The notes under the pieces are model-generated. The model worked only from the letters and a program-made list of their open reading frames with translations, was not told the DNA's origin and did no database searches. A stretch of DNA of 64,000 nt, taken from Shewanella dokdonensis. GTDB lineage: Bacteria; Pseudomonadota; Gammaproteobacteria; Enterobacterales; Shewanellaceae. A program made the position numbers and the translations under genes. The DNA is taken from contig NZ_CP074572.1 in NCBI RefSeq assembly GCF_018394335.1, positions 2,604,001-2,668,000 on the forward strand. Direction: 5' to 3'. Shown one piece after another: positions 32,258-57,497 of this stretch. Every line of letters begins with the position of its first letter. Position 1 is the first letter of the stretch.

Positions 32258-32281
32258 GCCGGTGACAGCGATGCCACCGGC
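32258..32281 (+). promoter_or_regulatory. Hairpin between nifK and nifT
   Basis: GCCGGTG-N10-CACCGGC forms a 7-bp GC-rich stem right after the nifK stop with no U-tract. It is better placed to protect the 3' end of nifHDK message or reduce downstream expression than to terminate fully. Confidence 0.5.
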
Positions 32282-32313
32282 AATATTTCTGGTAACGGCT
32301 TGAGGAAAACACC

Positions 32314-32535: not shown

Positions 32536-32549
32536 AGGAGGAATGGGCG

Positions 32550-33256
32550 ATGATGCAACAACCTTTGATTTCCGATGAAGCCGCGCTGCGCATTGCCCTG
32601 GCAGTACGGAACTTGCCGGATGTGGGATTAGGCGCGCTGTTGGATCTGCTGTTGCAGCATCTGGGCGAACCTTTATCGGCAGAAAAACTGGCGGCTATTT
32701 CACCTAAATCGTTTCGGGTGATGGTGTCTTCACTTAGCGAAGCGCCCACTCGCCGCGATGTGTCATCGGCGTTGGCAATCCTTACCAATAGTGAGGTGGA
32801 GGAACTGGATGCGCCACAACTGCGGCTGTTACCGCCGTTAGTCGGCCCCAAGCTCACGGTGGCGATTACCTCCAATCAGGGGAAATGATCAACGGTCATT
32901 ACGGCTCCTGTATGCGGGTGCTGGTGTACGAAGTGAATGCCTATGCTCATCAGTTGGTGGATGTGCGCAATATTGATGGCGGTTTGCAGGGCGAAGCCCG
33001 CGCCGAATATATGCTGAACCAGCTCAAGGGGTGTCAGATGCTGTTTACCCTATCCATCGGTGGCCCAGCCGCAGCCAAAGTGACCCGTGCCAATATCCAC
33101 CCGGTGAAAAAAATGATGCCAGTCGCCGCCGCTGAAGCATTAACGGAACTGAGCCTGGTGCTCAGCCACAATCCGCCACCTTGGATCTGCAAGCTGTTGG
33201 GGATCACCTCCAGCCAGAATGAACTGCAATTCGAGGAGCAATGGGATGACGCTTGA
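32550..33256 (+). CDS. nifY: NifY/NafY nitrogenase cofactor carrier (one 1-nt deletion)
   Basis: The first part (about 110 aa, helical, LISDEAALRIALAVRNLPDVGLGALLDLLL) is the NafY/NifY N-terminal domain. The second (INGHYGSCMRVLVYEVN...) is a NifX/NifB C-domain-like FeMo-co-binding fold. They are in different frames because the G run at 32879-32882 lacks one G; restored, the protein is 235 aa and reads AITSNQGEMINGHYGSC. NifY/NafY binds apo-MoFe protein and FeMo-co during insertion. AAAGGAGG precedes the ATG at 32550. The symbol nafY would be equally fair. Confidence 0.85.
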
Positions 33257-39413: not shown

Positions 39414-39827
39414 ATGGCGCTAAGTAAAATTTGGGTTGCACTTTCATCATTAACGGTCGCACTGGTGATGGTCGGATGCGATGATAATGTGCAGACTCAA
39501 AACAAGTTTTCTGCCACCGAGATCTGCAAAGCCACTATGGCAACGGCGTTACAGCATGATGTTTCCACCATTAGCCTGGTGGATAAAAACGGCAAGCTGG
39601 TTTACGTGTCTTACACTGATCCCACTGATTCATCACAAAATATTTATCGTTGTCGGCTCGATGGTGACCATGTGTTATGGGCGCCAAACAAAGGGCAGTG
39701 GCAAAACCAAACAGAAGGGCAAATCTCCTTTATAGCCAATTACAATCAGCTCACTATCACTGAGACCAGCGGTAATGGTCAGCAGCATACCAACCAATAT
39801 AAGTTGTCAGAGTTAAAAAGCTCCTAA
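39414..39827 (+). CDS. Small lipoprotein of unknown function (paralogue 1)
   Basis: This 137-aa product has a signal and lipobox (LVMVGCDD). The mature part shares a pattern with the gene 360 bp downstream: F-S-A/D-A-T/E-EICKA-ATAL-H/K-D, then VD-NGKLVYVSY, IYRC-L/I-G, W-K-GQW and TI-ET-S-GQQ. The fold should be a compact beta-rich domain. I recognise no family. GGAGG precedes the ATG. A strong terminator follows, so the two paralogues are separate units despite their closeness. Confidence 0.72.
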   Translation: MALSKIWVALSSLTVALVMVGCDDNVQTQNKFSATEICKATMATALQHDVSTISLVDKNGKLVYVSYTDPTDSSQNIYRCRLDGDHVLWAPNKGQWQNQTEGQISFIANYNQLTITETSGNGQQHTNQYKLSELKSS

Positions 39828-39879: not shown

Positions 39880-40183
39880 GTGTGAGTAACGGCTATGACA
39901 ACCTTCTTATGCTTGTCATCTGTGCCCATTTCGAGCTATCGAGTGATAAAGCAGTGAGTGAGCACTTCTATTAGATAGTAGAACCGGTGCGGGTGAGTAC
40001 GAGTGTGGCGATACAGGTGAGCATTCTTTAGCTGGCATAAACATGAACAAAAAGACATGTTTCTCTGATTTATTTTGACGGCGGATAGGTAGAGACTAAA
40101 AAATCAATGTTCTTGCTGCAATGTGGTTGCTGCCTGCCATCTCTGAAATGACGCACTTCATTGTGGTATTTTATGGAGGAGTT

Positions 40184-40618
40184 ATGTTCACCCGTGCAAC
40201 TTTGGTTGTGTTGCCATCGCTGTTACTGGCGGGTTCTCTAGCCGGTTGTGGTAACAACAAAGGCCAATTCAGTGATGCCGAAATCTGCCGCGCTTCTGTG
40301 GCTACGGCGCTACATAAAGACCCGTCAATTTTTAATGTGGATGATGTTAACGGTAAGCTTGTTTATGTCTCTTATCATGAACAGGATAACTGGAAGCACG
40401 ATATCTACCGTTGCAAAATTGAAGGCACTAAAGCCATTTGGGCAACTGAAAAAGGCCACTGGAAAACCAGCAGTAAAGATGCGCAACTTACCTTTGCGGC
40501 CAATGAGGATAAGTTGACCATTGTGGATACGTCGGCTGATGGCCAGCAGATCAACAAGCATTACAAGCTTGAGCAGTTGAAAGTTGATGTGCCCAGCAAA
40601 CCTGGGCTGAAAGGCTAG
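40184..40618 (+). CDS. Small lipoprotein of unknown function (paralogue 2)
   Basis: This 144-aa lipoprotein (lipobox LAGCGNN) is clearly related to the preceding one: EICRASVATALHKD, VNGKLVYVSYHEQ, DIYRCKIEG and TADGQQINKHYKLEQLK-like segments. The ATG at 40184 has GGAGG upstream; an upstream in-frame start at 40121 would add residues before the signal peptide. It is a tandem duplicate that has diverged. The 300 bp between the copies shows no gene. Role unknown. Confidence 0.72.
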   Translation: MFTRATLVVLPSLLLAGSLAGCGNNKGQFSDAEICRASVATALHKDPSIFNVDDVNGKLVYVSYHEQDNWKHDIYRCKIEGTKAIWATEKGHWKTSSKDAQLTFAANEDKLTIVDTSADGQQINKHYKLEQLKVDVPSKPGLKG

Positions 40619-40829: not shown

Positions 40830-41561
40830 TTATTCGGTCAAGTTGCGCTTTTTTAGCTCATCAAGGTAGTTGTAAATGGTATAGCGCGTGACCCCAAGCG
40901 CTTTGGCTGCCCGGTTAACGCCGCCACGAACCACAAACATCCCATTGCTTTGCATGTGTTCAACTGCGGCAATTTTCTCTTCACGGGTCAACAGATTGAT
41001 TGGTTTCCCCAGCGTAGTTAAGGAACCTGCCACTATGTCATCCATCAGGTTGCCGACTTTGGCGGGCTGATGATCACTCGGGGCTGGCTGCTTGATATCT
41101 TTGCCCAACATGCGGCTTAACCAGGCATGGGCCATATGGGGAATAGTCATATCGGAGTTAAAACATAAGGCGGCAAATGGCATCCCATCGCTATCGCGGA
41201 AAATGGCGGTAGAGGAGTGCAGCGTTACCCCGTTTTTAGTCACCGTATTGTAGCTAGCAATAATGCTGTTTTGTTCACCAATGGCATCGGCAACATCGCG
41301 AGCCGCCGCAAACCCCGCATCACCTTTGGGGCCGGCGAGGATTGAATCACCAACACCGCGACCGGTCACATGTCCATGAGTAATGGCGATCACGGAATTT
41401 TCTGGACGGGTCATGTCGTGCAGCACAACCTCAACATTATCGCTCAGCACTTCATTCAACAAATCAACCACTGTCATCAACACATTGATCACTAACTGTC
41501 TTTCGGTAAGGCAAAACTGCGTTCGAAAGTTCAGTGGCTCAGTTTTTGTTTTTGTATTCAT
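40830..41561 (-). CDS. YheO/DauR-family transcriptional regulator (PAS_6 + HTH_22)
   Basis: This 243-aa DNA-binding regulator has an N-terminal YheO-like PAS domain (LNEVLSDNVEVVLHDM; NSVIAITHGHVTGRGVGD; HSSTAIFRDSDGMPFAALCFNSD, about 28-135) and a C-terminal HTH (VEHMQSNGMFVVRGGVNRAAKALGVTRYTIYNYL, about 204-237). DauR of this family represses D-arginine catabolism, and RidA genes are common neighbours. It is divergent from the TonB receptor at 41998, and the shared intergenic region has repeated palindromes, so it probably controls that cluster. Ligand unknown. Confidence 0.82.
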   Translation of the reverse strand: MNTKTKTEPLNFRTQFCLTERQLVINVLMTVVDLLNEVLSDNVEVVLHDMTRPENSVIAITHGHVTGRGVGDSILAGPKGDAGFAAARDVADAIGEQNSIIASYNTVTKNGVTLHSSTAIFRDSDGMPFAALCFNSDMTIPHMAHAWLSRMLGKDIKQPAPSDHQPAKVGNLMDDIVAGSLTTLGKPINLLTREEKIAAVEHMQSNGMFVVRGGVNRAAKALGVTRYTIYNYLDELKKRNLTE

Positions 41562-41997
41562 TGAGTTTTTCCATAAAACAGCACTTAAGGTGAATGTTTA
41601 AAAACAAGGCTGTTTGTATTTTTTAGGCCGATTTAAACCCCCAAAAATCATGCCTGTTATATTGGCCTATTTTACAAATTTAAACAAATTGTTTATCCAA
41701 TCAACATAAAAGTGTTGATCGCATACACAAAATGTGTAATTTATAAACGGACGTTAAGAAATTGTTGAGCGATAAAGCTGCTGGTTTCGCCTGGGGGCGC
41801 GTCACATGAAAACTGTCATATAACAATAATAGTGGCAATTTTTTTTATAAAACTATTAAAAATAAATGGTTGCTAGCTTTGTGGATGTTTGTTGCATGGA
41901 TTGCTGAGACTCAAGCGACCAGAAAAATGCAAAGCGGACAGATGTAATTAACATCTTTCTAAATAAATTCAACAAATTGTTAATTGGAAGAATGTGT
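41562..41997. promoter_or_regulatory. Divergent control region with repeated palindromes
   Basis: The identical 11-bp palindrome AACAAATTGTT occurs at 41683-41693 (extended to TAAACA-AAT-TGTTTA) and at 41971-41981, the second just upstream of the receptor ribosome site. Also present are ATCAACA-N6-TGTTGAT (41700-41719) and TACACA-AAA-TGTGTA (41724-41738). These are the likely operators for the YheO-type regulator and perhaps CRP or another factor. The region is strongly AT-rich. Confidence 0.6.
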
Positions 41998-44271
41998 ATG
42001 CTGCCTTTACCCTCATCTCTGGAAAAGAAAAGCCCTCTGGCCAAAGCAATCGGTCTGTCGCTTGGCCTAGTGGCGTTGTCATTATCCACTCAGGCGCTGG
42101 CCGATGAAGCCGTGCCTGACCAAGACCCAAGCGCTAGCGATAACAAAAGTATTGAAAAGATTGTTGTGACGGCAACCAAACGTAATGAACGTTTGCAGGA
42201 TGTACCGCTGTCGATGGAAGTGTTGGATGCCAAGCAACTGGCTGAAAACGGTAAGAATAAACTTGCGGACTATTTTGCTGAAATCCCTGGCCTGAGTTAT
42301 GTGTCCAGTGCCATGAGCAGCACGATTGTAATGCGTGGTGTTGGCACCGATGCTGGTATTGGTACTCGCCCCACCTCAGGTGTGACCATTGATGACGTGC
42401 CCTATGGTTCAGCGACCAATACCGGGGTAATTCCTGATTTAGACCCGTCTGATATCCAACAGATTGAAGTGCTACGAGGCCCGCAAGGGACGCTGTATGG
42501 TGCCAGCAGCATGGGCGGGTTGGTGAAGTATGTTTCTGTTGATCCCAACGCCAGTTATGCCACAGGTCGGCTAGAAGTCGGCGGTTCTTCTGTGGCTCAT
42601 GGTGGCAATGGTTACAGTGTCCGGGCCTCTGGCAATGTGCCTGTTTCGGAGGATTTTGCACTGCGTGCCAGCGCCTTCAAACGTGAAGACCCTTCATTTG
42701 TTACCAACACCCGTGATGGTTCCGATAACAGTGTTAAAAGTAAAGGTGGCCGGGTGGCGATGATTTGGTATCCGTCAGAAACAGTCACTATCCGCTCATC
42801 GGCGATGTTCCAGAATACCACTCAGGATAATACCGCCACTGTTGATGTAACCCCTGAACTGCAACCCGTGTACGACGATTATCAACATAATCGGATGGTG
42901 GGCACTGATAGTTACGAAGGTCAGACGCGTTTTTATACCACTAAGATCACGGGCGATCTGGGCTGGGGAACACTGGACTCCATTACCGGCTATACCGAGC
43001 ACCGGGCGGCGGCCAAGCAGGATGTAGGCTATACCTCTATTGGCATTTTGGCGCCAATGTTTGCCGGTATGATGGGCCTGGATTATGAAGAAGCCGGGGC
43101 TTTTATTGATAACCGCTATGACGAGGATAAGCTGAGTCAGGAATTCCGTCTGTCTTCAAAAGATGATGTGCGGCTGCAATGGCAGGTGGGGTTGTTCTAT
43201 ACCCGTGAGGATGTGAACAGCACCCAGAACTTCTATCTGGGCGACAATGTGACGGGCAACTACTTCGCGGCGTCACCATTGCTGATCTCTATGGGCGATG
43301 ATCGTTATCGTGAAACGGCGGTATTTGGCAATACCACCTACAAGATTACCGATAAGTTGGATGTCACTATCGGTGGTCGTTTCAGTAAATACAAGATGGA
43401 CGGTGATAGCACCACAGGTGGCATGTTGGTCGATGCCGATGAAACTTATGAAAGCTACGATGACAACATATTTACCTATCTGTTATCCAGCCGTTATCAC
43501 TTCGATGAAGAGATGATGATGTACGCTCGCATTGCCTCAGGTTATCGTGCTGGTGGCAGTAACGGCAACTTGGTGCCAGGTATTCCCGCGGGTTATGATT
43601 CCGACAAACTGGTCAGCTATGAGCTGGGCTTTAAGGGCGGGTTCTTTGACAGTGCGTTGACATTGAATGCAACCGCTTATTATATCGATTGGTCAGACTT
43701 GCAGATCAGCCAGGTTGATTTGACTTATGGTTCCAACTACACCACCAATGCCGGTAAAGCCGCCAGTCAGGGCTTAGAGCTCAGCTTGGGTTATAACTTC
43801 CTGGAAGATTGGCAATTCAATGCCAGCTACGCTTATACCGATGCTTCATTGGCTGAGGATATCCCAGGGTATGTTGACGGCTCTACCGCTTACGGTAAAG
43901 ACGGTGATCGCATGCCATTCTCAGCGAAAAATTCAGGTACAGCATCGCTGAGCCACAACTTCGACCTAGGTAATGGCATGTTGTTGTCCTTCAGTGGCAA
44001 CGTAACCTATATGGGCGACCGTTACATGCAGTTTACCCAGTCATCCGCTATCTCTCGTATTCATCTACCCAGCTATACCACTGTTGGGCTCAGTTCTACA
44101 CTGAGTTATGACAACTGGGCGCTGACACTGTACGCCAACAACCTGTTTGATAAGGAAGGCTATATCAGTGCTAACCGCCGTGGTACCGCTACTGCCACCG
44201 ATGACGTTAACTATGGCGCAGTGGTTATTCAACCACAGACCGTAGGTCTGACATTGTCCTGGCAGATGTAA
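41998..44271 (+). CDS. TonB-dependent outer-membrane receptor of the peptidase cluster
   Basis: This 757-aa receptor has a signal peptide (about MLPLPSSLEKK...LSTQALADE), a TonB box EKIVVTATKR, a plug domain (LQDVPLSMEVLDAKQL; IEVLRGPQGTLYGASSMGG, about 60-180) and a 22-strand-type barrel. It belongs to the broad CirA-like TonB receptors that take up non-siderophore substrates in Alteromonadales and Caulobacter-type bacteria. No Fur box is seen. The ATG at 41998 has GGAAG eight bases upstream. Its cluster of exported peptidases suggests that the ligand is a peptide or amino-acid conjugate. A GC hairpin separates it from the next gene. Confidence 0.88.
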   Translation: MLPLPSSLEKKSPLAKAIGLSLGLVALSLSTQALADEAVPDQDPSASDNKSIEKIVVTATKRNERLQDVPLSMEVLDAKQLAENGKNKLADYFAEIPGLSYVSSAMSSTIVMRGVGTDAGIGTRPTSGVTIDDVPYGSATNTGVIPDLDPSDIQQIEVLRGPQGTLYGASSMGGLVKYVSVDPNASYATGRLEVGGSSVAHGGNGYSVRASGNVPVSEDFALRASAFKREDPSFVTNTRDGSDNSVKSKGGRVAMIWYPSETVTIRSSAMFQNTTQDNTATVDVTPELQPVYDDYQHNRMVGTDSYEGQTRFYTTKITGDLGWGTLDSITGYTEHRAAAKQDVGYTSIGILAPMFAGMMGLDYEEAGAFIDNRYDEDKLSQEFRLSSKDDVRLQWQVGLFYTREDVNSTQNFYLGDNVTGNYFAASPLLISMGDDRYRETAVFGNTTYKITDKLDVTIGGRFSKYKMDGDSTTGGMLVDADETYESYDDNIFTYLLSSRYHFDEEMMMYARIASGYRAGGSNGNLVPGIPAGYDSDKLVSYELGFKGGFFDSALTLNATAYYIDWSDLQISQVDLTYGSNYTTNAGKAASQGLELSLGYNFLEDWQFNASYAYTDASLAEDIPGYVDGSTAYGKDGDRMPFSAKNSGTASLSHNFDLGNGMLLSFSGNVTYMGDRYMQFTQSSAISRIHLPSYTTVGLSSTLSYDNWALTLYANNLFDKEGYISANRRGTATATDDVNYGAVVIQPQTVGLTLSWQM

Positions 44272-44278
44272 TCCTTTA

Positions 44279-44305
44279 AGCCGCCCGGTGTTATGGCGGG
44301 CGGCT
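44279..44305 (+). promoter_or_regulatory. GC-rich hairpin after the TonB receptor
   Basis: AGCCGCCCG-N9-CGGGCGGCT, a 9-bp stem directly after the receptor stop with only a weak U-tract (GTTTA). It is likely a partial terminator that sets receptor message above the downstream enzymes. Confidence 0.6.
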
Positions 44306-44324
44306 GTTTACCCAAGAGGTGATG

Positions 44325-46017
44325 ATGAAGTTATATTCTCCCTTCGCGGTACTTTCCCTGTGTGCCCCAGCGATACTTGCAAGTTCGATGGCAGCACAGG
44401 CGGCGGAACCGCAGCTTTTTATTAAACTCACCCCAGTTGTTGAACATGGTCAGGCCGTTGCGCTGGATGTCACTGAAGTCTATCAATTGGACGGCACGTT
44501 ACCGCCATTGACGATTGCGCAAACACTGGGGCCGCTGCAACATATTGATCAGCGTATTCATAGCATTAAGGTTAGCGATGCGGCCGGAGCCGTCATGCTC
44601 CAACCGACCACCACAGATATTCCTGATACGCTGGGTAAACTCCCTCGCGCTTGGAAGACCAACCGTGCGACCAAGGGGCGGTGACCGTAAGTTATCGCGC
44701 GGATATTTCGCGAGAAACTACCCCTGGCCCGACTTGGGAACTGCGCAGTGAACCCCGCGGGATCAGTGCCGCCGGTAACACCTTCCTGTTATTACCGCAG
44801 GTAACTCAGCCTTATCAGGTGCAACTGAGCTGGGATCTGACCGCCTTAGGTCAAGGTGCCAGCGCCATTGACAGTTTGCCCTTTGATGGTGTGGCGTTAC
44901 CACAACGAATTGCCGCCACTTATTATATGGCGGGGCAGTTGCACCGTTATCCGGCCAATGGCGATACCAAAGGGCCATTTCGTGCCGCATCTACTGCCGA
45001 TAGCAATCAATTTACCCAAGAAACGCTGCTGACCTGGGCACATGATGCCTATGTGAAATACAGCGATTTCTTTGGCTTCCTGAATTGCCGCCTTTTACTG
45101 TGACCTTCCGTAGCAATCCAATGATCTCCAAAAGTGGAACCGAATTGCCGGATGCCTTGATGGTCGCTGCCAATAACGATATTTCGCTGAAAGAGATGAC
45201 GCAGATCCTCTCTCACGAGATGGTGCATGTGTACCTGCACGGTTTGGAGGGCGCGAGTTGGTTTCAAGAAGGCTTAGCGGTGATGTATGAGAATCGGGCG
45301 CCTTATGCGTTGGGGCTAACCGACAGTGCCACCTATCTGCAAGCGGTCAACAACACGCTGCTGACTTACTACAGTAATGTGCGTAAAGACATGGATATGC
45401 AGGCCGCAACCGCCGCATTCTGGACCGATGCGCGGGCACGTTTGCAGCCTTATTTTCGCGGGGCGCTGTACTTCATAGTGACCGATTCGCGCATTCGCCA
45501 AGCGTCTGCCGGTAAACATAATCTCGACCAACTGCTGGTGGATTTTCTGGCACAGGAACGCGCGGGTAAAGCCGTTACGGCGGCAGATTGGGTAGCACTG
45601 GTGCGCCGTTACATTGGCGATGCTGCCGATAGCGATTATGCCGCGATGCAAAACGGTGGTTTTTTAGTGCCAGAACCAGAAGCCTTCGGGCGTTGTTTTA
45701 CCCGTGAGCAGGTAACTATGCCACTGTTTGAACTCGGTTTTGATATCAGCAGCCTGATGCAGACTCCGCGAGTTATTCATGGGCTTGACCCTAACTCACC
45801 CGCCGCCAAAGCGGGCATTAGAGAAGGTGACAAGGTGTTGAAGTCCGTTGGACTGGATGAACAGCAGTCAAAACCCTCGTCACCACTGACTCTGCTAGTG
45901 GAACGTAATGGCGTACCAACCTCGATTGCGTTTGTGCCCACCGGCAAGCTGACCAAGGGCTATCAGTGGCGCTTGAAAACCGATGTCAGTGGTAAGGAAG
46001 CACAATGCCGCGAATAA
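44325..46017 (+). CDS. Exported M61-like metallopeptidase with PDZ domain, copy A (two 1-nt deletions)
   Basis: The frame breaks at 44671-44672 and 45077-45078; restored, the protein is 564 aa, close to the 560-aa paralogue at 51793. It has a signal peptide (SSMAAQA|AEP), an N-terminal beta-rich domain, a gluzincin catalytic domain with HEMVH and, 16 residues further on, WFQEGLAVMYENR, and a C-terminal PDZ domain (RVIHGLDPNSPAAKAGIREGDKVL). M61 enzymes are glycyl- or broader aminopeptidases. The expected place is the periplasm. It overlaps the next gene by 13 bp. Identity with M61 rests on motif and domain order only. Confidence 0.75.
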
Positions 46018-47456
46018 CCTGTCATTTGCGTGCGCTGCTGAGCTTGGCATTGGCCGTTGCCGTGGTGCCTTCTGCCGTTGCCGCCACGGCTAACCCATGG
46101 TCGAGTCACTGTGGCCGTGAGTTGCAACTGCCCGATGGCCAGCTCAGTTACCATCCCTGCTTTGAGGCGTTAGCACTGGAAGGCGCGAGTATCAGTGCCA
46201 CCGCTTATGTGGCACAACAGGCAAAACCGCGTCCGGTGCTGTTTTTATTCAACGGCGGGCCAGGTGCTTCCTCATCGTCACTGCATTTTGCGGGGTGGGG
46301 CCCAAACTCAAAGCACGCGATGCCCAGGGCGAGGAACATCTGCAAGATAATCCAGAGACCTTGTTAGCGGTTGCCGATTTGGTGTTTATCGATCCGCCGG
46401 GAACGGGTTTCAGCGAGAGCCCGCAAGATGAACAGGCGCAAGCCGCTTACTGGTCGACTGCCGGAGATGCCAAAGCCGTTAATCAGTTTATGCATCAATG
46501 GTTAGCGCAACACCAGCGCCAAGACGCCAAGGTATTTATTGCCGGGGAAAGTTATGGTGGTTATCGCTTGGCTACGCTGGCTGGGCAGCTTGATGACTTG
46601 AATATGGGGGGACTACTGCTGGTTTCCCCGCTGCTGGATGGCAGCGCTGCGGAAGACGCCAAAGGTAATGACTTGCCTTTTGTGATGGCGTTGCCGTCTT
46701 TGGCGGTTGCTGCCGCGACCCAAGGCAAAGGTGCATACTCCAAGATGCCAGTGGCCGAGCTATTTCAACAGGCGAAGCAGTTTGCCATAACGCAGTATGC
46801 GCCAGCGTTGATGCTAGGCAATGCGATACCCGCGGAGCAAGCAACCCAACTGGCACAAGCGCTTGCCCGTTATACCGGGTTAGCGGCGAGCACTTGGTTG
46901 CAACATAACTTGAGGATCAGCGCTGAAGACTTTCGCAATATGCTGCTGGCGGAGGATAACCAGGTGTTTGGTCGGCTCGACAGTCGGGTGTTAGCCGCCA
47001 AGCCAACGCCTAAAAAGATCGTCCTTCCGCCCTTGATGATCCCGCGCTGGGGCTTAAAGGTGGCTTAGTGATCAAGTCGCCAGCTATTGCTCATGAGTTA
47101 CAGCAACTGACCGGGATTAAGATGTCGCGCGATTATCTGGCGCTAAACCTCAATGTCAATTTTCACTGGCAGTATGTGGACAAACGTCCGCCGGGTTTCA
47201 ATACGCCGATTTTCTACTTCAATCCCACCCCAATATCGCCGCATTGCAGCAGCAACAGCCGACGATGAAAATTATGGTGCTCAGTGGTTATTACGACTTA
47301 GCCGTGCCCGCATTAGCCGCTTGGTATGCCTTGGTTCATGCCGGTGTATCGCCCGCCCAGATGCAGTATGAAATATTGCCTGCGGGGCATTCGATCTTTG
47401 CCGATCCCTCGGTGCGGAAACAACTGCAGCCACAACTGACGGAGTTTTTGAAATGA
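46005..47456 (+). CDS. Exported S10-family serine carboxypeptidase-like protein, copy A (three 1-nt deletions)
   Basis: The frame shifts at about 46298-46304, 47012-47016 and 47224-47231. Restored, the product is 484 aa, equal to the 487-aa paralogue at 53488. It has a signal peptide (VPSAVAATA), the oxyanion block FLFNGGPGASSSSLHFAGWGP, the nucleophile serine in AGESYGGYRLA, the acid in SGYYDLAVPA and the His in LPAGHSIFA, which together form an S10 alpha/beta-hydrolase catalytic triad. It should remove C-terminal residues from peptides or act on acyl conjugates in the periplasm. It overlaps both neighbours, which suggests tight coupling. Confidence 0.78.
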
Positions 47457-49474
47457 AAAGTTGGCGTTATCTGTTGCCACTTATTACCGCCACCATGTTG
47501 GTGATCCCTGCCCTGCGTGCCGCCGAGCCGTTATCTGTGGTGGCCAATGGCGAAGTGGTAGGCAGTGTGGTTGTGAGCGAACAGCAGGGCAAAACCCAGA
47601 TAGTCTATCGCGTCGATGACAATGGTCGCGGCCCTAAACTGACCACTGAACTGCAACTCGGGGACGCGGGTATTCCGCTGTCGCTGTCGGTAACGGGCAC
47701 CTCTTTGATGGGCGGTCAGGTGGCAGAACATTACCGTTATCATCAAGGCGTGGCCGAATGGCAAAGCCAAGCGGATAGTGGCAAGCAGTCATTGACGGCA
47801 CCTCGGCTATATATTGTCAATGACAGTAATCCTTGGTTGTTGGGCGTTTACGCCAGAGCCTTATTGGCGCAGCCTCAGCATCGGCTCAAGGTACTCCCTA
47901 GCGGTGAGTTGTCGTTGCAGTCTTTGCCGCAGCAGGTGTTGGGCACGGGGGCGCAGCAACTCACCTTACAGGTTTACCGTTTAACCGGATTGTCGTTGCA
48001 GCCATCGTATTTGATGTTAGATCAGCAACAGCAGTTGTTTGCGGTGTTTTCAGCAACTGGTGTGACGCTGCGCCAGGGCTATGAAGCGCAAGCCGGATGG
48101 TTGCAGTCTCTGGCCGGAGACTTAGAAACATCGCGGATGCGAGAACTGCAACAGCAACTGGCGCATCAGCCGTCAGCGCAACCCTTGCGATTGGTCAATG
48201 TACATGTGTTACAGGTACAACAGGGGCAGCGCACTGGTTTGATGTCGCTACAAATCAAAAATGGTTTGATCAGTGCAATAGAACCTTGGCACGCCGGTCA
48301 GCATTATCCCGGTGAAACGGTATACGACGCTAACGGTGGCACGCTGATCCCTGGCCTGCATGATATGCACTCCCATTCTACGCTGGACTCCGGCCTTTGG
48401 TATCTGGCAGCGGGGATTACCAGTACCCGAGATATGGGCAACGATAATCAGTTTCTGTTGGATTTGATCCCCAGAATTGATAGCGGTGAAATTGCGGGCC
48501 CTCGCATTGTGCGCAATGGCTTCCTGGAAGGGCGTAGTCCCTATTCTGCCCGTGATGGCTTTGTGGTCGACAGTGAACAAGACGCCGTGGCAAAGGTGCG
48601 CTGGTACAAGAAACACGGTTACTGGCAGATCAAAATCTACAACTCCATGAATCCGGCATGGGTGCCCGCCATTACTCGTGAAGCCCACCGCTTGGGAATG
48701 ACAGTTACCGGCCATATCCCCGCGTTTACTTCGCCGGATCAGATGATTGCGGCGGGTTATGATGAAATTACTCACGCTAACCAATTGATGCTGGGTTGGT
48801 TGTTGCACGCCGATGAAGACACCCGTACACCTTTACGTTTGACCGCGATGGTGCGCGCAGCTGATCTCGATCTTAACAGCGAGCAAGTGCAACGCACGTT
48901 GTCATTGATGCAGCAGCATCATATTCCGCTGGACCCCACTGCGGTGATTTTGGAGCGGCTGATGTTGAGCCGTGCAGGCGCGGTTACGGCGGGGGATAAA
49001 CCGTACCTGTCGCACATGCCCATAGGTTATCAACGTTACCGTCAGCGCACCTTTGTTCCGGGATTAACTCCAGCATTGGATAAACAGTATCACGCAGCCT
49101 TCAACAAAATGATCGCGCTGTTAGGCATGATGCATGACAAGCAGCTCCAGCTGTTGCCGGGAACGGATGACACCACTGGGTTTACGGTATTGCGGGAGTT
49201 AGAACTCTATGTGCAAGCTGGGATGACACCCGCCGAAGCTGTGCGTGCCGGAACCCTCGACTGCGAACGCTATTTGGGCCGCGAGCAGCAATTGGGTAGT
49301 CTGGAGGTCGGCAAACGGGCGGATATGGTACTGCTGCGGGATAACCCGCTAGACAATATCAGCAACATTCGTAGCGCACAGATGGTGATCAAGGATGACA
49401 GTTACTACTTTCCGGCAGAGATCTATCAGGCATTGGGAGTGAGCCCGTTCGCCCTGCCACCAAATAAATTATAA
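47453..49474 (+). CDS. Exported amidohydrolase
   Basis: This 673-aa protein has a signal peptide (ATMLVIPALRA|AEP), an N-terminal beta-rich part of about 240 residues seldom seen in the family, and a metal-dependent amidohydrolase domain. Metal and active-site motifs are LHDMHSHST (HxH), the lysine in IKIYNSM, VTGHIPAF, THANQ, the catalytic Asp in LPGTDDT and the closing GSLEVGKRADMVLL. Related enzymes split dipeptides (Xaa-Pro or Xaa-Arg), N-acyl amino acids or imides. Overlap of four bases with the S10 gene. The substrate is unknown; the cluster suggests an amide-linked amino-acid compound. Confidence 0.8.
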   Translation: MKSWRYLLPLITATMLVIPALRAAEPLSVVANGEVVGSVVVSEQQGKTQIVYRVDDNGRGPKLTTELQLGDAGIPLSLSVTGTSLMGGQVAEHYRYHQGVAEWQSQADSGKQSLTAPRLYIVNDSNPWLLGVYARALLAQPQHRLKVLPSGELSLQSLPQQVLGTGAQQLTLQVYRLTGLSLQPSYLMLDQQQQLFAVFSATGVTLRQGYEAQAGWLQSLAGDLETSRMRELQQQLAHQPSAQPLRLVNVHVLQVQQGQRTGLMSLQIKNGLISAIEPWHAGQHYPGETVYDANGGTLIPGLHDMHSHSTLDSGLWYLAAGITSTRDMGNDNQFLLDLIPRIDSGEIAGPRIVRNGFLEGRSPYSARDGFVVDSEQDAVAKVRWYKKHGYWQIKIYNSMNPAWVPAITREAHRLGMTVTGHIPAFTSPDQMIAAGYDEITHANQLMLGWLLHADEDTRTPLRLTAMVRAADLDLNSEQVQRTLSLMQQHHIPLDPTAVILERLMLSRAGAVTAGDKPYLSHMPIGYQRYRQRTFVPGLTPALDKQYHAAFNKMIALLGMMHDKQLQLLPGTDDTTGFTVLRELELYVQAGMTPAEAVRAGTLDCERYLGREQQLGSLEVGKRADMVLLRDNPLDNISNIRSAQMVIKDDSYYFPAEIYQALGVSPFALPPNKL

Positions 49475-49587
49475 CAAACAATATGTTGGTAGCAGGGGGC
49501 CGGCCTGCTGCCGTTGTAGCATTTTCAGAGTCAGGTTGCTTTGTTCTTTTGCCGGCAGCAATTGTTGACTCTGATGTGAGGAAAAAC

Positions 49588-50094
49588 ATGGATTCAATTG
49601 AACAGCGGTTAAAGGAACTCGGATTGTGCTTGCCGCCTGCTATTCAAGCCCCGGCAGGTATTGTGTTGCCGTTTGTTATGGTGCGGGTTCTGGGAAACCG
49701 GGCATTGATTTCTGGTCATGGGCCACAGGCGGCTGATGGCACGATGACCGCCTATGTTGGAAAAATTGGTGTCGAGTTGACGGAAGCTGAAGGGTATCAG
49801 GCGGCGCGCTTGACCGCTTTGTCAATTTTAGGCAGCCTCAAACGGACACTTGGCAGCTTGGATCGGGTCAGTCGCTGGGGGCGCATCTTTGGCATGGTGG
49901 CCGCCAGCAGTGATTTTGCCAGGCAGCCAAACGTGATTAATGGTTTTTCTGATCTGATCATTGAGTTATATGGTCAAGAGCGTGGACAACACAGTCGCAC
50001 AGCGGTGGGCATGACCTCCTTACCCTTTGGGATCCCGGTGGAAATCGAAGGGGAAGTGGAACTTTATCCCGCCGATGAGATGGGGAATTACTGA
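49588..50094 (+). CDS. RidA/YjgF-family protein, cytoplasmic form
   Basis: This 168-aa YjgF/RidA-fold protein (NRALISGHGPQAADGTMTAYVGKIGVELTEAEGYQAARLTALSILG; VEIEGEVEL) is of the longer subfamily near class V aminotransferase genes. RidA proteins hydrolyse reactive imine/enamine intermediates made by PLP or flavin enzymes. No signal peptide is visible, so it is probably cytoplasmic, unlike the second copy at 51365. The start at 49588 has GAGGA. Its stop overlaps the next start by one base. Confidence 0.78.
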   Translation: MDSIEQRLKELGLCLPPAIQAPAGIVLPFVMVRVLGNRALISGHGPQAADGTMTAYVGKIGVELTEAEGYQAARLTALSILGSLKRTLGSLDRVSRWGRIFGMVAASSDFARQPNVINGFSDLIIELYGQERGQHSRTAVGMTSLPFGIPVEIEGEVELYPADEMGNY

Positions 50095-51368
50095 TGAGCA
50101 AAGAGAATCCCAATAACTTACGGCAACTTGATTGTTCCCGGCGCCAGTTATTAACCGGCATCGCGGCGATGCCAGTAGCCATGATGGCTGGTAATGTGCT
50201 CGCCAGTAATCCAGTTAAGCCATTGACAGGTAAAGGCTTGATGGGGTCGCGTGATGATTTTGCCTTGGCATCGACTTACCTTAATGGTGCCTATATGCAT
50301 CCGGTCACTATTGGTGCGGCAGATGCTATCAAGCATTATCTCAATGCACGGTTGATGAATAGTGCCGCCGCCGAGGTTGATATGGGCGGTGATCGTCATA
50401 AAGCGATAACGCTGTTTGGTGAATTATTCCATGCCGATGCAGATGAGCTGACCTGGGTGCCCAGTACTACAGTGGCTGAAAATCTGGTGGTTTCAGGCTT
50501 GGGGCTGCACCAGCAAGGCCATGTGGTGACCGATGTTTACCATTTCAGCGGTTCGCTGTTCATGTACAACGAGTTTGCCAAACAAGGGCTGCAATACTCA
50601 CTGGTAGCTGCCAGAGATAACCGTATTCATATCGAAGATCTGGAGCGCGCCATCACCCCGGCAACCAAGCTGATCGCCTTGACGCTGGTGTCAAACGTGG
50701 GCGGTTTTCAACACGATCTTAAAGCCGTATGCGATATGGCCCACAGCAAGGGCGTGCTGGTATTTGCGGACATCATTCAAGCGGCGGGTAACACCCCGAT
50801 TGATCTGCATGGCAGTGGCGTCGATTTTGCGGCTTGTTCCACCTACAAATGGCTGATGGGTGACTTTGGTATTGGACTGGTTTATGTACGCCGAGACCGC
50901 CAGCATTTGTTACAACGCAGCCAGATAGGTTTCCGCCAAGAAGGCCAAGTGGTGACCCATTATTTGCCATTTGATAAGCCGGGCACTCCGTTAATTGAAA
51001 CGCAGGCAACTTCAGGCCTGGCGGGAATTATCGGCGTTGGTACGCTGGGGAACGGTGCGGTATCGGCCTTAGCCTATTCCTTGGGCTATCTCAAAAAGCT
51101 CGGCATTGACAATATCCAAGCCTGGCGCCAGCCATTACTCAAACGATTACATGAAGCCTTGCCCCCGCTGGGGTTTGCCAGCATGACGCCAGTTGATTCC
51201 AAGTCCGCGATCATCTCGTTTCAATATGAACATGCGGCTGACAAAATTTATCCGAAACTGCAAGCTGCCGGAGTTGAGGTTACTGTCTACCGCCACTATT
51301 TCCGAATTTCGCCATCCTTTTACAACACGCTAGATGACGTGGAACAACTGATTGAGGCATTGTCATGA
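50094..51368 (+). CDS. Tat-exported class V PLP enzyme (isopenicillin-N-epimerase/cysteine-lyase-like)
   Basis: This 424-aa PLP-dependent class V aminotransferase-fold enzyme has the Schiff-base lysine in CSTYKWLMGDFGIG, the PLP-ring Asp in VFADIIQAAG and the phosphate-site ATSGLAGIIG. The N-terminus, SRRQLLTGIAAMPVAMMAG, is a good twin-arginine signal, so the folded, cofactor-loaded enzyme would go to the periplasm. That is rare for PLP enzymes. Members include epimerases, desulfurases and C-S or C-N lyases. Flanking RidA genes suggest that it releases an enamine or imine. The start ATG overlaps the previous stop. Confidence 0.8.
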   Translation: MSKENPNNLRQLDCSRRQLLTGIAAMPVAMMAGNVLASNPVKPLTGKGLMGSRDDFALASTYLNGAYMHPVTIGAADAIKHYLNARLMNSAAAEVDMGGDRHKAITLFGELFHADADELTWVPSTTVAENLVVSGLGLHQQGHVVTDVYHFSGSLFMYNEFAKQGLQYSLVAARDNRIHIEDLERAITPATKLIALTLVSNVGGFQHDLKAVCDMAHSKGVLVFADIIQAAGNTPIDLHGSGVDFAACSTYKWLMGDFGIGLVYVRRDRQHLLQRSQIGFRQEGQVVTHYLPFDKPGTPLIETQATSGLAGIIGVGTLGNGAVSALAYSLGYLKKLGIDNIQAWRQPLLKRLHEALPPLGFASMTPVDSKSAIISFQYEHAADKIYPKLQAAGVEVTVYRHYFRISPSFYNTLDDVEQLIEALS

Positions 51369-51796
51369 AGGCGCTCATCGCCATGTTAGCACTGCTTGGC
51401 AGTTGCAGTGCCAGTGCTGCTTCGCCAGTGTTTTATCCCGCGCCTGGCGCCCCATTTTCGAAAGCGGTGCGGGCGGGCGATACTCTATATTTGTCGGGAA
51501 TGATTGGCGCTACTGCCGATGGCAAGCTGCCCAGTGATTTTGCCAGCCAAATCCAGCAGTTGCTGGAAAATATCAAGGCTCGTACAGCCGCCTTGGGTCT
51601 CTCAATGGATGACTTGGTGAAGTGTACCGTCATGCTGGATGACATGGGTAACTGGTCACAATTCAATAAAATCTACATGACGTATTTCAAACCGGATCAT
51701 CTTCCCGCCCGCAGTGCTTTTGCGGTTAGTGGCTTAGCACTTGGCGCCGCCGCTGAAATGGAATGTATTGCTTATGTCCCCGCGGAGGCCAAATGA
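51365..51796 (+). CDS. RidA-family protein with signal peptide
   Basis: This 143-aa RidA protein has an N-terminal signal peptide (MLALLGSCSASAA|SPV). The mature part has the family pattern APGAPFSKAVRAGDTLYLSGMIG, TVMLDDMGNWSQFNKIYMTYF and LPARSAFAVSGLALGAAAEMECIAYV. RidA normally has the catalytic arginine in P-A/x-R; the PARSA here fits. Export suggests that it removes imines formed in the periplasm by the neighbouring PLP enzyme. It overlaps both neighbours by four bases. Confidence 0.82.
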   Translation: MKALIAMLALLGSCSASAASPVFYPAPGAPFSKAVRAGDTLYLSGMIGATADGKLPSDFASQIQQLLENIKARTAALGLSMDDLVKCTVMLDDMGNWSQFNKIYMTYFKPDHLPARSAFAVSGLALGAAAEMECIAYVPAEAK

Positions 51797-53475
51797 GAGC
51801 GTTGCGTATCACCGGGTGTTTGCTGTGGTGCTTGTGCCAACCGGTATTTGCCAGCGGACAGCCGCCGCATTTATGGCTACAGCTAGCGCCAACTATGGTG
51901 GCCGGTACTATCGAAGATGTGGCGGTTAGCCTCAATGTAGAAAGTCCCAGAGTGGCGGCTGGGGAAACGCTGTTAACTATGCCTATCACGCTGGTGTCTA
52001 CCCCGACAGCTGCCTATAGCGCCGAGCAGATCAGCGCATCGGATGCCAGCGGGAGTTTGCCACTGCAAAGTGAAGATCTCCCGGCAACACCTTCTGGGCA
52101 ATATCGCCGTTATTATGCGGCGCGGGCCACTCAAGGCGTTATCAAGTATCACTATCACACGGCCCCTAGAGTGGTGGATGCCACTACCCGCAACGGCCCG
52201 TTATTTGACCTGCGACGTCAGCAACAGGGGATGATGGGCGCTGGCGTGTATTTCTTGGCGTTACCCGCAGGGACTCAACCCTATTCGATTGAGCTTGGTT
52301 GGGATCTGAGTGCCATGCCCAAGGGCAGTTTGGGCGTTTGGAGTGGTGGTGAACATACTCAGCAGCAGATAGCCCCGGCCGAGTTACTGCGTTTTTCCTA
52401 CTACGCTGCTGGTTTACTGCATCGATGGTCGGATAACGCGGCGCATTTCAGCATGTACTGGCTGGATAAACCACCGTTTGACATGCAGCAGTTGCCAATG
52501 CAGACCGCAAAATTCTATCGCTATATGGCACAGTTTTTTGGCGATCAAAACGATTACCGGGTCTTTGCCCGTTCGAATCCTTATCCAGCGGGCGGTGGTA
52601 CTGGGTTGGCGCATTCGTTTATGTTTGGCTACGGCAGTGAAGGGCAGACCATCGCCGAAGGTGTGCAAATTCTGCTAGCCCATGAAATGTCCCATACTTG
52701 GCCGACTCTTAATGGTGATGAACCGCATGCAGAAACTGCCTGGTACACCGAAGGTACGGCTGAATACTATGCCATTGTGATGTCACAGCGTGCGGGGATA
52801 TCTAGCGCTGAAGAGCTGTTGCGGCAGATTAATCTGCGGACGACTGCCTACTATGCCAACCCTTATTTGCATCTGAATAATCACGCTGCGGGTGGGTTGT
52901 TCTGGAAAGATGCCAGAGCGCAGAAAGTGCCTTATGGCCGTGGCTTTATGTATTTCTTCAAGCTGAATCAACAGTTGTTACAATACTCGCAAGGGCGGCG
53001 CAGCGTGGACGATCTGGTGCTGGAGGTTTATCGGCGACAGCAACAAGGCGAAATCATAGGTCTGGCGCAATGGCGCGAGATACTCAAGCGTGAACTGGGT
53101 GACGCCGCTGTCAGCGACTTTAATGCCATGACTCAAGGCGAGGTACAGGTGCCACCCGCTACGGCCTTTCACTGTTTACAGGCTCAGCCAGTCAGTTATC
53201 GACCATTTGACTTAGGGTTTGATGAGATGCGTTTGGGGGAAGTGACGAAACTGCGCCCAGACAGCGAAGCCGCCAAAGTTGGCCTGCAAAATGGTGACAC
53301 CATTCTCAAGCTGACGGCTCTTGATGAACTCAGACGTGACGCCAGTAAACTGATGGTTATCAGTGTCAGTCGGCATGGTAAGACCTTGTCTTTTCACTAT
53401 CTTCCCCGTGGCCCATTGGTGGCTGGCTGGCAATGGCAGTTCAGTCCACAAGGCCCAGCGGCATGTCATATCTGA
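51793..53475 (+). CDS. Exported M61-like metallopeptidase with PDZ domain, copy B
   Basis: This 560-aa intact paralogue of the protein at 44325 starts at 51793, overlapping the RidA stop (ATGA). It has a signal peptide (CLCQPVFA|SGQ), an N-terminal beta-rich domain, a catalytic domain with LLAHEMSHTWPT and the glutamate helix WYTEGTAEYYAI (M61 pattern), and a C-terminal PDZ domain (VTKLRPDSEAAKVGLQNGDTIL). It probably acts in the periplasm as an aminopeptidase. Having two diverged copies in one operon suggests different residue specificity. Confidence 0.8.
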   Translation: MRALRITGCLLWCLCQPVFASGQPPHLWLQLAPTMVAGTIEDVAVSLNVESPRVAAGETLLTMPITLVSTPTAAYSAEQISASDASGSLPLQSEDLPATPSGQYRRYYAARATQGVIKYHYHTAPRVVDATTRNGPLFDLRRQQQGMMGAGVYFLALPAGTQPYSIELGWDLSAMPKGSLGVWSGGEHTQQQIAPAELLRFSYYAAGLLHRWSDNAAHFSMYWLDKPPFDMQQLPMQTAKFYRYMAQFFGDQNDYRVFARSNPYPAGGGTGLAHSFMFGYGSEGQTIAEGVQILLAHEMSHTWPTLNGDEPHAETAWYTEGTAEYYAIVMSQRAGISSAEELLRQINLRTTAYYANPYLHLNNHAAGGLFWKDARAQKVPYGRGFMYFFKLNQQLLQYSQGRRSVDDLVLEVYRRQQQGEIIGLAQWREILKRELGDAAVSDFNAMTQGEVQVPPATAFHCLQAQPVSYRPFDLGFDEMRLGEVTKLRPDSEAAKVGLQNGDTILKLTALDELRRDASKLMVISVSRHGKTLSFHYLPRGPLVAGWQWQFSPQGPAACHI

Positions 53476-53487
53476 GCTGAGGTACTT

Positions 53488-54951
53488 ATGACGTTTTCCA
53501 TAAAATGGGTCATGTTGCTGGCACTGACGTTGCCGCTGACACTGGCGGCACAAACACAGTCGCCTGAAGTGCTAACGCTGCCAGCCCCCTTGGTAAAAGA
53601 CCATCACGGCACCTTTAATGGCAAATCGCTGTCTTACCGTTCAGTCGTGGAAGCCTTTACGCTGACACCGTTGCCAGGCAACCCGCTGACACTTATCAGT
53701 AGCAGTTATCTGGTCGGCAATAACCCGCAGCGGCCTGTCTTATTTGCTTTTAACGGTGGCCCGATTTCACCCTCGGTATATCTGCATATGCTGGCATTGG
53801 GCCCTAAACGGCTGGCAATACCCGATGATCTGCATGCCGATCCTGCCAGCTTTCAACTGACCGATAATCCAGACAGCCCTTTGGATAAAGCAGATTTGGT
53901 GTTTTACGACCCAGCGGGCACCGGTTACAGCCACTTTGATGCTCCGGCAAAGTCTGCCGAATATTTCGGTAACACCAATGATGCCAAAGCGTTTGTTGCC
54001 TTTATGCATGCGTGGCTACAACGTCATCAGCGCAGCTCATCGCCCGTCTATATTTTGGGAGAAAGCTACGGCACCATGCGCGCCGCTGCGGTGGCGCAAC
54101 AACTGAGTGCCGAAGCGCAGCCGGTGGATCTGAAAGGCATTTATCTGTTTGGTCAGGCTCTGAATATTGTAGAAACAGCGCAACGCCCCGCCAACATCAT
54201 GACTTACGTTGTATCACTAAAAACCTTGGCAGCCTTAGCTTGGTATCACGGAAAAGTTGCCCATAACGGCCGCAGTTTTAAGGCGTTTATGGATGAAGTC
54301 GGCCAGTTCGCCGAAGGGGATTATCTCAAGGTGTTGCTCGCGGGAAATCGGGCATCTGCCGCTGAAAACCAGGCCGTTGCTGACCGTTTAGCCGCGTTGA
54401 CCGGGGTTCCTGCTAAGGTGCAGCAGCAATACCATCTGCGCATGAGTAAAAACCAGTTCAGGGTTGAATTGCTGAAAGCGGATAATTTGATCTTGGGCGC
54501 GTCAGATGGCCGCTATACCGCTAAGCCAGAGCGTGCTGGCGATGTGCCGGATGGCTCGGCGACCATCTATCCCGCCATATTTAACGCCTTTGCGAGTTAT
54601 AAACAGACCATGCTGGGAATTAACAGTGATGCGCCTTATGTCGTGTCGTCCCCGGTATCGAGTTTGGCGCAATGGGACTGGGGCTCTAAAGCGGGGCCTT
54701 TTGGTAATTGGCCTTATGCCGAAGGGATTAGCGCGGCACTCACGCGTTTTCCAGCAATGCAACTAGTGTTGGGCGTGGGGTATTACGACACGCTGACCAC
54801 CACCGGCGCCACCGAATACCTGTTACAGCAGAACGACTGGCCTGCATCTCGGGTGCATTTGCATTATTACGCCGGCGGACACATGGCATACACAGTGGCG
54901 GCCAATTTGCAGCAATTCTCGACAGATCTGCGACAATGGCTCTCAAAATAA
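53488..54951 (+). CDS. Exported S10-family serine carboxypeptidase-like protein, copy B
   Basis: This 487-aa protein has a signal peptide (LTLPLTLAA|QTQ), the oxyanion block FAFNGGPISPSVYLHMLALGP (differing from the usual NGGPGASS), the nucleophile serine in LGESYGTMRAAA, the acid in GVGYYDTLTT and the His in YYAGGHMAY. This copy is intact and supports the repair of copy A. GAGG lies upstream of the ATG at 53488, 12 bp after the M61 gene. It is the last gene of the cluster before a hairpin and the nifU control region. Confidence 0.82.
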   Translation: MTFSIKWVMLLALTLPLTLAAQTQSPEVLTLPAPLVKDHHGTFNGKSLSYRSVVEAFTLTPLPGNPLTLISSSYLVGNNPQRPVLFAFNGGPISPSVYLHMLALGPKRLAIPDDLHADPASFQLTDNPDSPLDKADLVFYDPAGTGYSHFDAPAKSAEYFGNTNDAKAFVAFMHAWLQRHQRSSSPVYILGESYGTMRAAAVAQQLSAEAQPVDLKGIYLFGQALNIVETAQRPANIMTYVVSLKTLAALAWYHGKVAHNGRSFKAFMDEVGQFAEGDYLKVLLAGNRASAAENQAVADRLAALTGVPAKVQQQYHLRMSKNQFRVELLKADNLILGASDGRYTAKPERAGDVPDGSATIYPAIFNAFASYKQTMLGINSDAPYVVSSPVSSLAQWDWGSKAGPFGNWPYAEGISAALTRFPAMQLVLGVGYYDTLTTTGATEYLLQQNDWPASRVHLHYYAGGHMAYTVAANLQQFSTDLRQWLSK

Positions 54952-55215: not shown

Positions 55216-55232
55216 CTGGTGTGACATTTGCA
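55216..55232 (+). promoter_or_regulatory. Sigma-54 promoter of nifUSVWZM
   Basis: CTGGTGTGACATTTGCA has GG (55218-55219) and GC (55230-55231) ten bases apart, with a good TTTGCA -12 element. It is 84 bp before the nifU start and lets this arm be expressed independently of the other nif operons. Confidence 0.82.
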
Positions 55233-55315
55233 ATCCCTAATACACAAGCTGGATTTGAGGGCTTCTGCTAAGGCAAGTGCCAAGCACTTGCTGATGGAGA
55301 ACGCGAGGAGTGTAT

Positions 55316-56256
55316 ATGTGGGATTATTCCGAAAAAGTGAAGCAGCATTTTTCAATCCGAAAAATGCCAAACTGCTCAGTGATGCCAATGCCAGAGGCGA
55401 TGTGGGCTCCATCAGTTGCGGTGATGCACTGAGTCTGAGTTTGAAGATCAATCCCGACAGCGAAGTGATTGAAGATGCCGGTTTTCAGACCTTTGGCTGT
55501 GGCAGCGCCATCGCCTCCTCTTCGGCACTGACTGAAATCATTATCGGCAAAACCCTCAATGAAGCGCTGCAAGTCACCAATCAGGATATCGCCGATTATC
55601 TTGATGGCTTGCCACCGGAAAAGATGCACTGCTCGGTGATGGGCATGGAAGCCTTACATGCCGCCGCGGCGAATTATCGCGGGGAAAGCCTAGAAGATGA
55701 CCATGAAGAGGGTGAGCTAATCTGCAAATGCTTTGCAGTCGATGATTTGATGATCAAACGGGTGGTGAAAGCCAATGGCCTTTCCACCGTGGCTGAGGTG
55801 ATCAATTACACCAAGGCTGGCGGCGCCTGCACCGCTTGTCATGAAAAAATTGAATGGGTACTGGATGCCTGTCTGGCGGAAATGGCGGGTGAAGCATCGG
55901 CCAAACCGTTGCAAGTCGCGGCGCAGGCATCTGCGGTAGTGCAAGACATTCCAGTAGAAGACATTCCTATGGAATTTGATGCCGCGCTGGCCGAAAAAAT
56001 CACGGTGATTGAACAGGTGATTGCCGAAGTACGTCCGGCGGTGCAGGCCGATGGCGGCGATATTCGCTTGGTGGATGTGGAAGATAATCTGGTGTTTGTC
56101 AGCATGTCGGGCGCTTGCACCGGTTGCGGTTTGTCTGGGCTGACATTGGCCAATGTGGAAGTGAAAATCTCCAAAGCCTTAGGCGAGCCTTACACCGTTT
56201 TCCCGGTACAGGAGACTGCACCCGTTGCCAAAAAGGAGGCCACTTATGACTGTTGA
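55316..56256 (+). CDS. nifU: NifU Fe-S cluster scaffold (one 1-nt deletion)
   Basis: The true start is the ATG at 55316 (GAGGAG upstream), reading [12 protein letters not shown]. The T run 55348-55352 lacks one T, after which the frame continues [13 protein letters not shown]; repaired length 313 aa. The three-domain NifU order is clear: an IscU-like domain ([35 protein letters not shown]), a central [2Fe-2S] domain ([20 protein letters not shown]) and a C-terminal Nfu-like domain ([12 protein letters not shown]). NifU receives sulfur from NifS and delivers [4Fe-4S] clusters to nitrogenase components. It overlaps nifS by 11 bp. Confidence 0.93.
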
Positions 56257-57490: not shown

Positions 57491-57497
57491 GGTGTCT

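Follow-up and report, generated by a model that had tools for sequence, protein, structure and literature searches.

An operon of Shewanella dokdonensis joining a TonB receptor, exported peptidases, a Tat-type class V PLP enzyme and RidA: a candidate line for periplasmic peptide catabolism

Why should one operon combine a TonB-dependent receptor, M61 and S10 peptidases, an amidohydrolase, a class V pyridoxal phosphate (PLP) enzyme with a Tat-type signal, and a RidA protein with an export signal of its own? Such an operon lies in a 64,000 nt stretch (positions 2,604,001–2,668,000; hereafter, the window) of the 4.13 Mb, one-contig genome of Shewanella dokdonensis. Imine and enamine chemistry, and RidA with it, are regarded as mainly cytoplasmic. 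The answer proposed here is that the operon encodes an exported line for peptide catabolism, ending in periplasmic deamination by the PLP enzyme together with exported RidA, a reading for and against which we judge the case to be evenly balanced. If true, reactive imine chemistry would be carried out outside, and 2-aminoacrylate-like products would be kept off the cell's own PLP enzymes. According to an initial annotation of this DNA, no named pathway is known to have this exact set of genes, and full-text searches of the open-licence PMC literature agreed, in that no paper describing it was found; the sole match to the gene-set queries (PMC12502724), by its excerpted text, catalogues the proteins that Asaia releases.

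The operon is read from the forward strand in the order TonB receptor, M61a, S10a, amidohydrolase, PF14588 (YjgF-like) protein, class V PLP enzyme, RidA, M61b and S10b, as given by open reading frames (ORFs) and Pfam matches, and is preceded on the reverse strand by a YheO-type regulator gene. Pfam confirmed the initial assignments of receptor, amidohydrolase and class V enzyme. The overlaps of 1–13 bp first described for nearly all genes hold, using the likeliest starts, at five junctions (M61a/S10a, 13 bp; S10a/amidohydrolase, 4 bp; YjgF-like/PLP, 1 bp; PLP/RidA, 4 bp; RidA/M61b, 4 bp, or 34 bp if M61b is counted from its first ATG), while three junctions have gaps (receptor/M61a, amidohydrolase/YjgF-like and M61b/S10b). 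All ten genes are intact and in identical order in Shewanella mangrovi (L005), the closest named relative at the locus.

Linkage of these genes exceeds chance. Among 7,997 candidates scored, 1,803 were homologues of the PLP enzyme at E ≤ 0.001, and a profile (A1) built from the window protein and 22 of 120 listed homologues detected 262 encoding stretches in genome contigs, the best 80 of which were kept as 79 loci (L005–L083). Neighbours were counted within the fetched stretches from codon-scored gene calls, using hidden Markov models (HMMs) built both on the window proteins and on families of their neighbours; since some loci end at contig ends, the counts are lower bounds. Around the PLP gene, the 79 loci carry S10 (56), a TonB receptor (54), an amidohydrolase (51), M61 (42) and RidA (21), and further an APC-type permease (44), a class I/II aminotransferase (40), an Lrp-type regulator (32), an OCD-family protein (31), a YjgF-like protein (11) and a YheO-type regulator (8). 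S10, M61 and amidohydrolase occur together in 25 loci, and at least two of the three in 59. The set, whole or in part, is found in Shewanella, Xanthomonas, Sphingomonas, Asticcacaulis, Burkholderiales and some Bacteroidota. As a control, we took from each of 20 locus-bearing genomes the 20 kb surrounding its best match to PF00266 (class V): these regions contained no S10, M61, amidohydrolase, RidA or OCD gene, one TonB receptor and one permease, against 18, 17, 16, 9, 8, 17 and 11, respectively, around the PLP gene of the same genomes, a comparison tilted to the positive side both by the choice of the 20 genomes, made for diversity after the maps had been seen, and by the training of the HMMs on the same loci. 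The Pfam S10 model, which is independent of those HMMs, matched 64 genes in 15 chosen genomes, and 37 of them lie by coordinates within the fetched loci, which measure about 21 kb (at least 21,083 bases in each of the 15; one match is at a locus edge). Two of the three S10 genes of the window genome lie in the operon. Co-occurrence outside the strain, for which the initial annotation had proposed a neighbourhood search, is borne out by these counts and their control.

The PLP enzyme (50094–51368, forward strand) has a predicted SufS-like fold. K252, D226, H150 and R404 are conserved in all 83 PLP rows aligned, and include the PLP lysine (K252) and the PLP-ring histidine (H150) expected of the cysteine desulfurases SufS and IscS. 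The cysteine-bearing loop of SufS aligns to a gap of profile A1 in the three alignments, of four printed, that reach that region, and the SufS model gives the window enzyme 99.4 bits against a cut-off of 475.1. A desulfurase reading is rejected for lack of the catalytic Cys loop; export and a different set of gene partners also separate the enzyme from SufS/CsdA and from the C-S lyase C-DES. A twin-arginine pair followed by a hydrophobic stretch, scored as a motif only, is present in 75 of the 83 rows, the window protein having SRRQLL. No NCBIfam cut-off is reached by the family among the matches listed, and its best solved-structure match by sequence has an E-value of 3.1e-19. Given the range of bacteria in which the gene set occurs, whole or in part, identifying one substrate would annotate a large PLP family. 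Four loci (L021, L026 and L041 of Burkholderiales, and L035) have a second PLP copy; a Tat-type signal is present on one of the pair and apparently lacking on the other. A single ORF joining PLP and S10 sequences in Duganella (L021) was set aside as evidence, its second half having its own signal-like peptide.

RidA (51365–51796, forward strand; PF01042, 9e-28) follows directly. An N-terminal export signal was recognised by eye, and R116 aligns with the arginine of two solved relatives of the RidA/UK114 type. The excerpts of PMC4433059 give the catalytic arginine as a criterion for the arginine-bearing Rid groups, and link RidA to PLP enzymes that produce 2-aminoacrylate. A catalytic-type arginine is present in 18 of the 21 RidA relatives at the loci. 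Twelve of the 21 are stand-alone proteins with a signal by eye, five are fused, and four have no signal (L021, L022, L043 and L045), leaving 17 that appear exported, either by their own signal or behind that of the fusion partner. In Duganella L021, the RidA without a signal directly follows the PLP copy that likewise has none. Of the two RidA proteins initially proposed, this one stands as an exported PF01042 protein, while the other belongs to PF14588 (49588–50094, forward strand) and is probably cytoplasmic: its ORF opens at 49483, but the proteins of S. mangrovi and other relatives start at the equivalent of an internal Met at about 49588, and have no export signal.

In five of the 79 loci the amidohydrolase and RidA form one ORF behind a single export signal (L037, at 5630–8236, L048, L061, L071 and L080), the hosts being two Henriciella, HGW-Alphaproteobacteria-18, Hyphomonas and Ponticaulis. 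PF01042 and PF01979 occur together in 33 of 120 listed homologues of one fusion protein, including Hyphomonas neptunium and Hirschia baltica proteins encoded on contigs of 3.5–3.7 Mb, making an assembly artefact unlikely. At the C-terminus, the Henriciella fusions (L037, L048) have a stretch containing glycine and a hydrophobic tail resembling a membrane anchor.

The amidohydrolase of the window (47453–49474, forward strand; Amidohydro_1, 6.6e-15; export signal by eye) shares K394, H421, H441 and D572 with all 50 aligned relatives, and H306 and H308 with 41 (nine have gaps); we take these residues to be metal ligands. It is only distantly related to solved enzymes of the prolidase and arginine-carboxypeptidase types (3mtw, 4.7e-12). 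Xaa-Pro and Xaa-Arg dipeptidases (Cc2672 and its relatives) resemble it, as weak matches, in the amidohydrolase core and the pattern of metal ligands, but the window enzyme scores far under the cut-off of the Xaa-Pro dipeptidase model NF051886 (103.3 against 500 bits), has a long N-terminal part, and is of a type fused to RidA in Hyphomonadaceae. The N-terminal part, of about 240 residues (47453–48250), has no Pfam match, yet falls inside the HMM match of full-length relatives. A motif resembling (D/S)NGRGPK was seen in this part of the fusion proteins.

Each peptidase family is represented by one intact gene and one apparently split gene; of the two M61 and two S10 enzymes described initially, the intact copies were confirmed. 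M61b (51793–53475, forward strand; the ORF opens at 51763 but 51793 is the likely start) scores 25.2 bits with PF05299 (cut-off 22), and its predicted structure (pLDDT 89.1) is closest to 4fgm (Z 24.5, deposited as aminopeptidase N family), 7xyo (23.7, a Myxococcus M61 enzyme) and 8j9c (19.7, a Xanthomonas M61 enzyme), with M1-type enzymes ranking lower, at Z 18.1 and below. The accompanying motif, HExxH with a further E, is present in 54 of 56 rows, the other two being gaps. The PDZ domains first attributed to both M61 enzymes fared less well, PDZ_6 reaching 23.1 bits in M61a (cut-off 27) and no PDZ appearing among the listed Pfam matches of M61b. S10b (53488–54951, forward strand; PF00450, 2.6e-15, 57.1 bits against a cut-off of 21.9) has a Ser-Asp-His triad, with S193 in all 145 relatives and D434 and H465 in 143 (two gaps). 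The receptor gene (41977–44271, forward strand) opens with TTG, a predicted start, and encodes plug and barrel domains (1.6e-18 and 9.7e-40). Neither an S9 nor an amine-oxidase domain was found in the operon ORFs scanned with Pfam.

The co-occurring genes support the initial picture of uptake followed by a periplasmic breakdown line that includes a PLP enzyme and a RidA, both exported. The steps may be envisaged as follows. The receptor would import a peptide, or a peptide-like conjugate, into the periplasm, where the S10 carboxypeptidases would trim it from the C-terminus and the M61 metallopeptidases would cut from the N-terminus or internally, leaving a small amide to be cleaved by the amidohydrolase. 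The free amino acid released, with its carboxylate open, would be converted by the periplasmic, Tat-exported PLP enzyme to an enamine or imine, by elimination or oxidation and not by desulfuration of the SufS type, and exported RidA would hydrolyse the imine, yielding ammonia and a keto acid. From there the products would pass to the cytoplasm, in many relatives probably by way of the linked amino-acid permease. In some relatives, for the most part Alphaproteobacteria, an OCD protein of the imine-reductase type and a second aminotransferase could continue the route in the cytoplasm, where the OCD protein is placed by the N-termini seen. Judged from its sequence, the OCD protein is a second putative imine-handling family beside RidA: against the Pyr2C/Pip2C reductase model PRK06141 (cut-off 322), two-domain proteins of two Nitrospirillum loci score 454 and 447.5 bits, and the protein of Sphingomonas L049 scores 239.1 bits. 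The linked class I/II aminotransferase is nearest to the GntC and VioD models, far below their cut-offs. Four Nitrospirillum loci (L058, L075, L079 and L083) encode OCD-family proteins of about 650 aa, and both that were scanned (L058, L083) contain two OCD stretches.

A wider claim would be that this is a widespread, undescribed pathway of periplasmic nitrogen harvesting, in which the enzymes that deaminate a specific amino acid, wholly outside the cytoplasm, form a new family of class V PLP lyases or oxidases, exported by Tat and lacking the Cys. RidA would have been recruited as their exported catalytic partner and, in Hyphomonadaceae, fused to the amidohydrolase so that the freed enamine is hydrolysed at once. 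This is offered tentatively, as somewhat less likely than not. Besides the tilt of the control, several observations weigh against the exported line of peptide catabolism proposed above. The predicted SufS-like fold does not distinguish elimination, oxidation, transamination and racemisation. Fourteen of the 79 loci, mostly of Bacteroidota and Acidobacteriota, have no S10, M61 or amidohydrolase gene in the fetched stretch, so these are not constant companions of the PLP family, and the four Bacteroidota M61 proteins aligned are remote (15–18% identity to M61b). RidA is missing from the fetched stretch of 58 loci, and is thus either not obligatory or sited elsewhere. In the two Asticcacaulis loci, L043 and L045, RidA has no signal although the PLP enzyme is exported, and the two of 21 RidA rows in which Cys replaces the arginine are, by sequence, from these same loci. 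In L064, whose PLP enzyme falls in one clade with those of the fusion loci, the amidohydrolase is unfused. No OCD match was found in the window genome, so an OCD step cannot be general.

Extracytoplasmic deamination has parallels elsewhere. According to the excerpts of PMC5053998, Tat export is predicted for an L-amino-acid oxidase (LAAO) of Gluconacetobacter whose gene shares an operon with cccA and ridA; a complex of LAAO and RidA in the periplasm of Chlamydomonas is cited there. These sets are alike in that, as that source proposes, deamination of amino acids takes place outside the cytoplasm and RidA hydrolyses the imine, but they use a flavoenzyme and a cytochrome c in place of a PLP enzyme, and that text nowhere mentions a TonB receptor. 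Transamination outside the cytoplasm is likewise demonstrated by PtaA, which, with PvdN, is described in the excerpted text of PMC6206403 as a Tat-exported periplasmic PLP enzyme. The operon might serve general peptide scavenging. The PLP enzyme would then act in the periplasm as a transaminase, like PtaA, or as a racemase, like an epimerase, and RidA would do no more than housekeeping, guarding against 2-aminoacrylate formed now and then. In favour are the 58 loci without RidA and the residues R404 and H150, which would suit whatever class V reaction takes place on an alpha-amino acid; an exported RidA within the operon, and its fusion to the amidohydrolase, exceed housekeeping needs, and we regard the explanation as unlikely, though worth keeping in view. 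PvdN itself invites comparison with a biosynthetic set, such as that in which it and other periplasmic enzymes mature pyoverdine. Both PvdN and PtaA are, like the window enzyme, exported folded by Tat and active in the periplasm, and PvdN is a weak sequence match. They serve biosynthetic pyoverdine tailoring, however, and the excerpts mention no peptidase or RidA partners; the PvdN model NF051467, with its cut-off of 650 bits, gives the window enzyme 21.8 bits, and membership of that family is rejected on this score. (PvdN and PtaA chains are not among the 50 VIA-align rows listed, which excludes nothing.) With peptidases, a receptor, a permease and Lrp or YheO regulators as partners, the set reads as catabolism, and a tailoring role is very improbable. 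The operon might also serve to take up and destroy a single special natural peptide (an antibiotic, a siderophore-like or a dehydroamino-acid peptide). Lasso-peptide isopeptidase loci follow such a logic, pairing a TonB receptor with a dedicated peptidase for the imported peptide. The present operon is headed by a receptor whose best NCBIfam match is a siderophore subfamily, below its cut-off (177.7 against 223.5), and enzymes fused as in Hyphomonadaceae would suit release of an enamine by amide cleavage, RidA handling the dehydroamino acid freed by its partner. Unlike the lasso-peptide loci, the operon ORFs have no S9 domain of the Atxe2 type (an S9 protein of Nitrospirillum L058 scores 96.5 against 400 for the lasso-peptide isopeptidase family). 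Receptor type also varies by lineage, TBDR1 in 20 loci and TBDR2 in 35, while the enzymes stay, making a single conserved ligand less likely; we rate a special peptide as improbable.

Compatible with any of these readings is decay of the operon in the window strain, with M61a and S10a as true pseudogenes and the line only partly functional. M61a (44319–46017, forward strand) is spread over three ORFs in three frames, HExxH being in the third piece, and S10a (46005–47456, forward strand) has its S10 match (3.4e-12) on the piece at 46295–47068. Comparison by tblastn with the intact S. mangrovi proteins gave two apparent frameshifts in M61a and three in S10a, and five within two adjacent genes would suit decay. 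All seven segments (four of them in S10a) nevertheless keep 39–83% identity to the S. mangrovi proteins. Two unrelated genes of the window also look split, which favours assembly errors over decay: an alcohol-dehydrogenase-like gene (17022–17953), with ADH_N and ADH_zinc_N on separate overlapping ORFs, and a NafY-like gene (32406–33253), similarly divided between DIMCO_N and Nitro_FeMo-Co, which are presumably parts of one nafY-type gene. Genome completeness of 96.6%, compared with 99–100% in the 21 relatives listed, fits sequencing errors. The breaks are likely to be assembly errors, and we think decay improbable.

The divergent regulator gene (40830–41561, reverse strand) has the PAS_6 and HTH_22 architecture (1.5e-26 and 8e-18) of the YheO/DauR type, as initially described, and may regulate the operon; YheO-type genes occupy the same divergent place in L005, L007 and L009. 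D-residue, isopeptide and sulfur-linked substrates had been suggested at first, and direct support was found for none of them. The D-amino-acid suggestion had come from the regulator, but a regulator of the YheO type is no proof of D-amino-acid chemistry, and more loci carry an Lrp-type gene than a YheO-type one (32 against 8, none having both). The intergenic region (41562–41976) contains one sigma-70-like site, at 41801, below the shuffled mean. An operator search found one 16-base stretch, from 41730, shared with S. mangrovi, a candidate operator or promoter only, and none in common with L007 or L009. Upstream of the regulator are two small lipoprotein-like ORFs (39414–39827 and 40121–40618), alike by eye and without a Pfam match.

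The PLP enzyme was found in two of 129 genomes of the genus (E ≤ 1e-60), and among 369 genomes drawn evenly from the class only in that of the window (E ≤ 1e-80), showing that it is rare outside selected relatives. In an IQ-TREE reconstruction of 84 PLP rows, the window protein pairs with that of S. mangrovi (100/99), and this branch adjoins Parahaliea (100/92) and then Xanthomonas bonasiae and X. massiliensis (99/87). The patchy distribution fits either gain by transfer or repeated loss.

Genes of the nif type flank the operon on both sides, at about 28244–33253 (nifH, at about 28244, and the NafY-like gene) and at 55228–58649, where NifU, class V (NifS-like by place) and homocitrate-synthase-like genes lie 3′ of the operon. 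A nifH match over the cut-off occurs in four of the 129 genus genomes, and both genomes with the PLP operon (G000 and G052) are among the four; in G052, nifH and the operon are on separate contigs (C4 and C16). Further upstream in the window, at 24965–26369, is a HipA-like pair, with Couple_hipA and HipA_C on adjoining ORFs.

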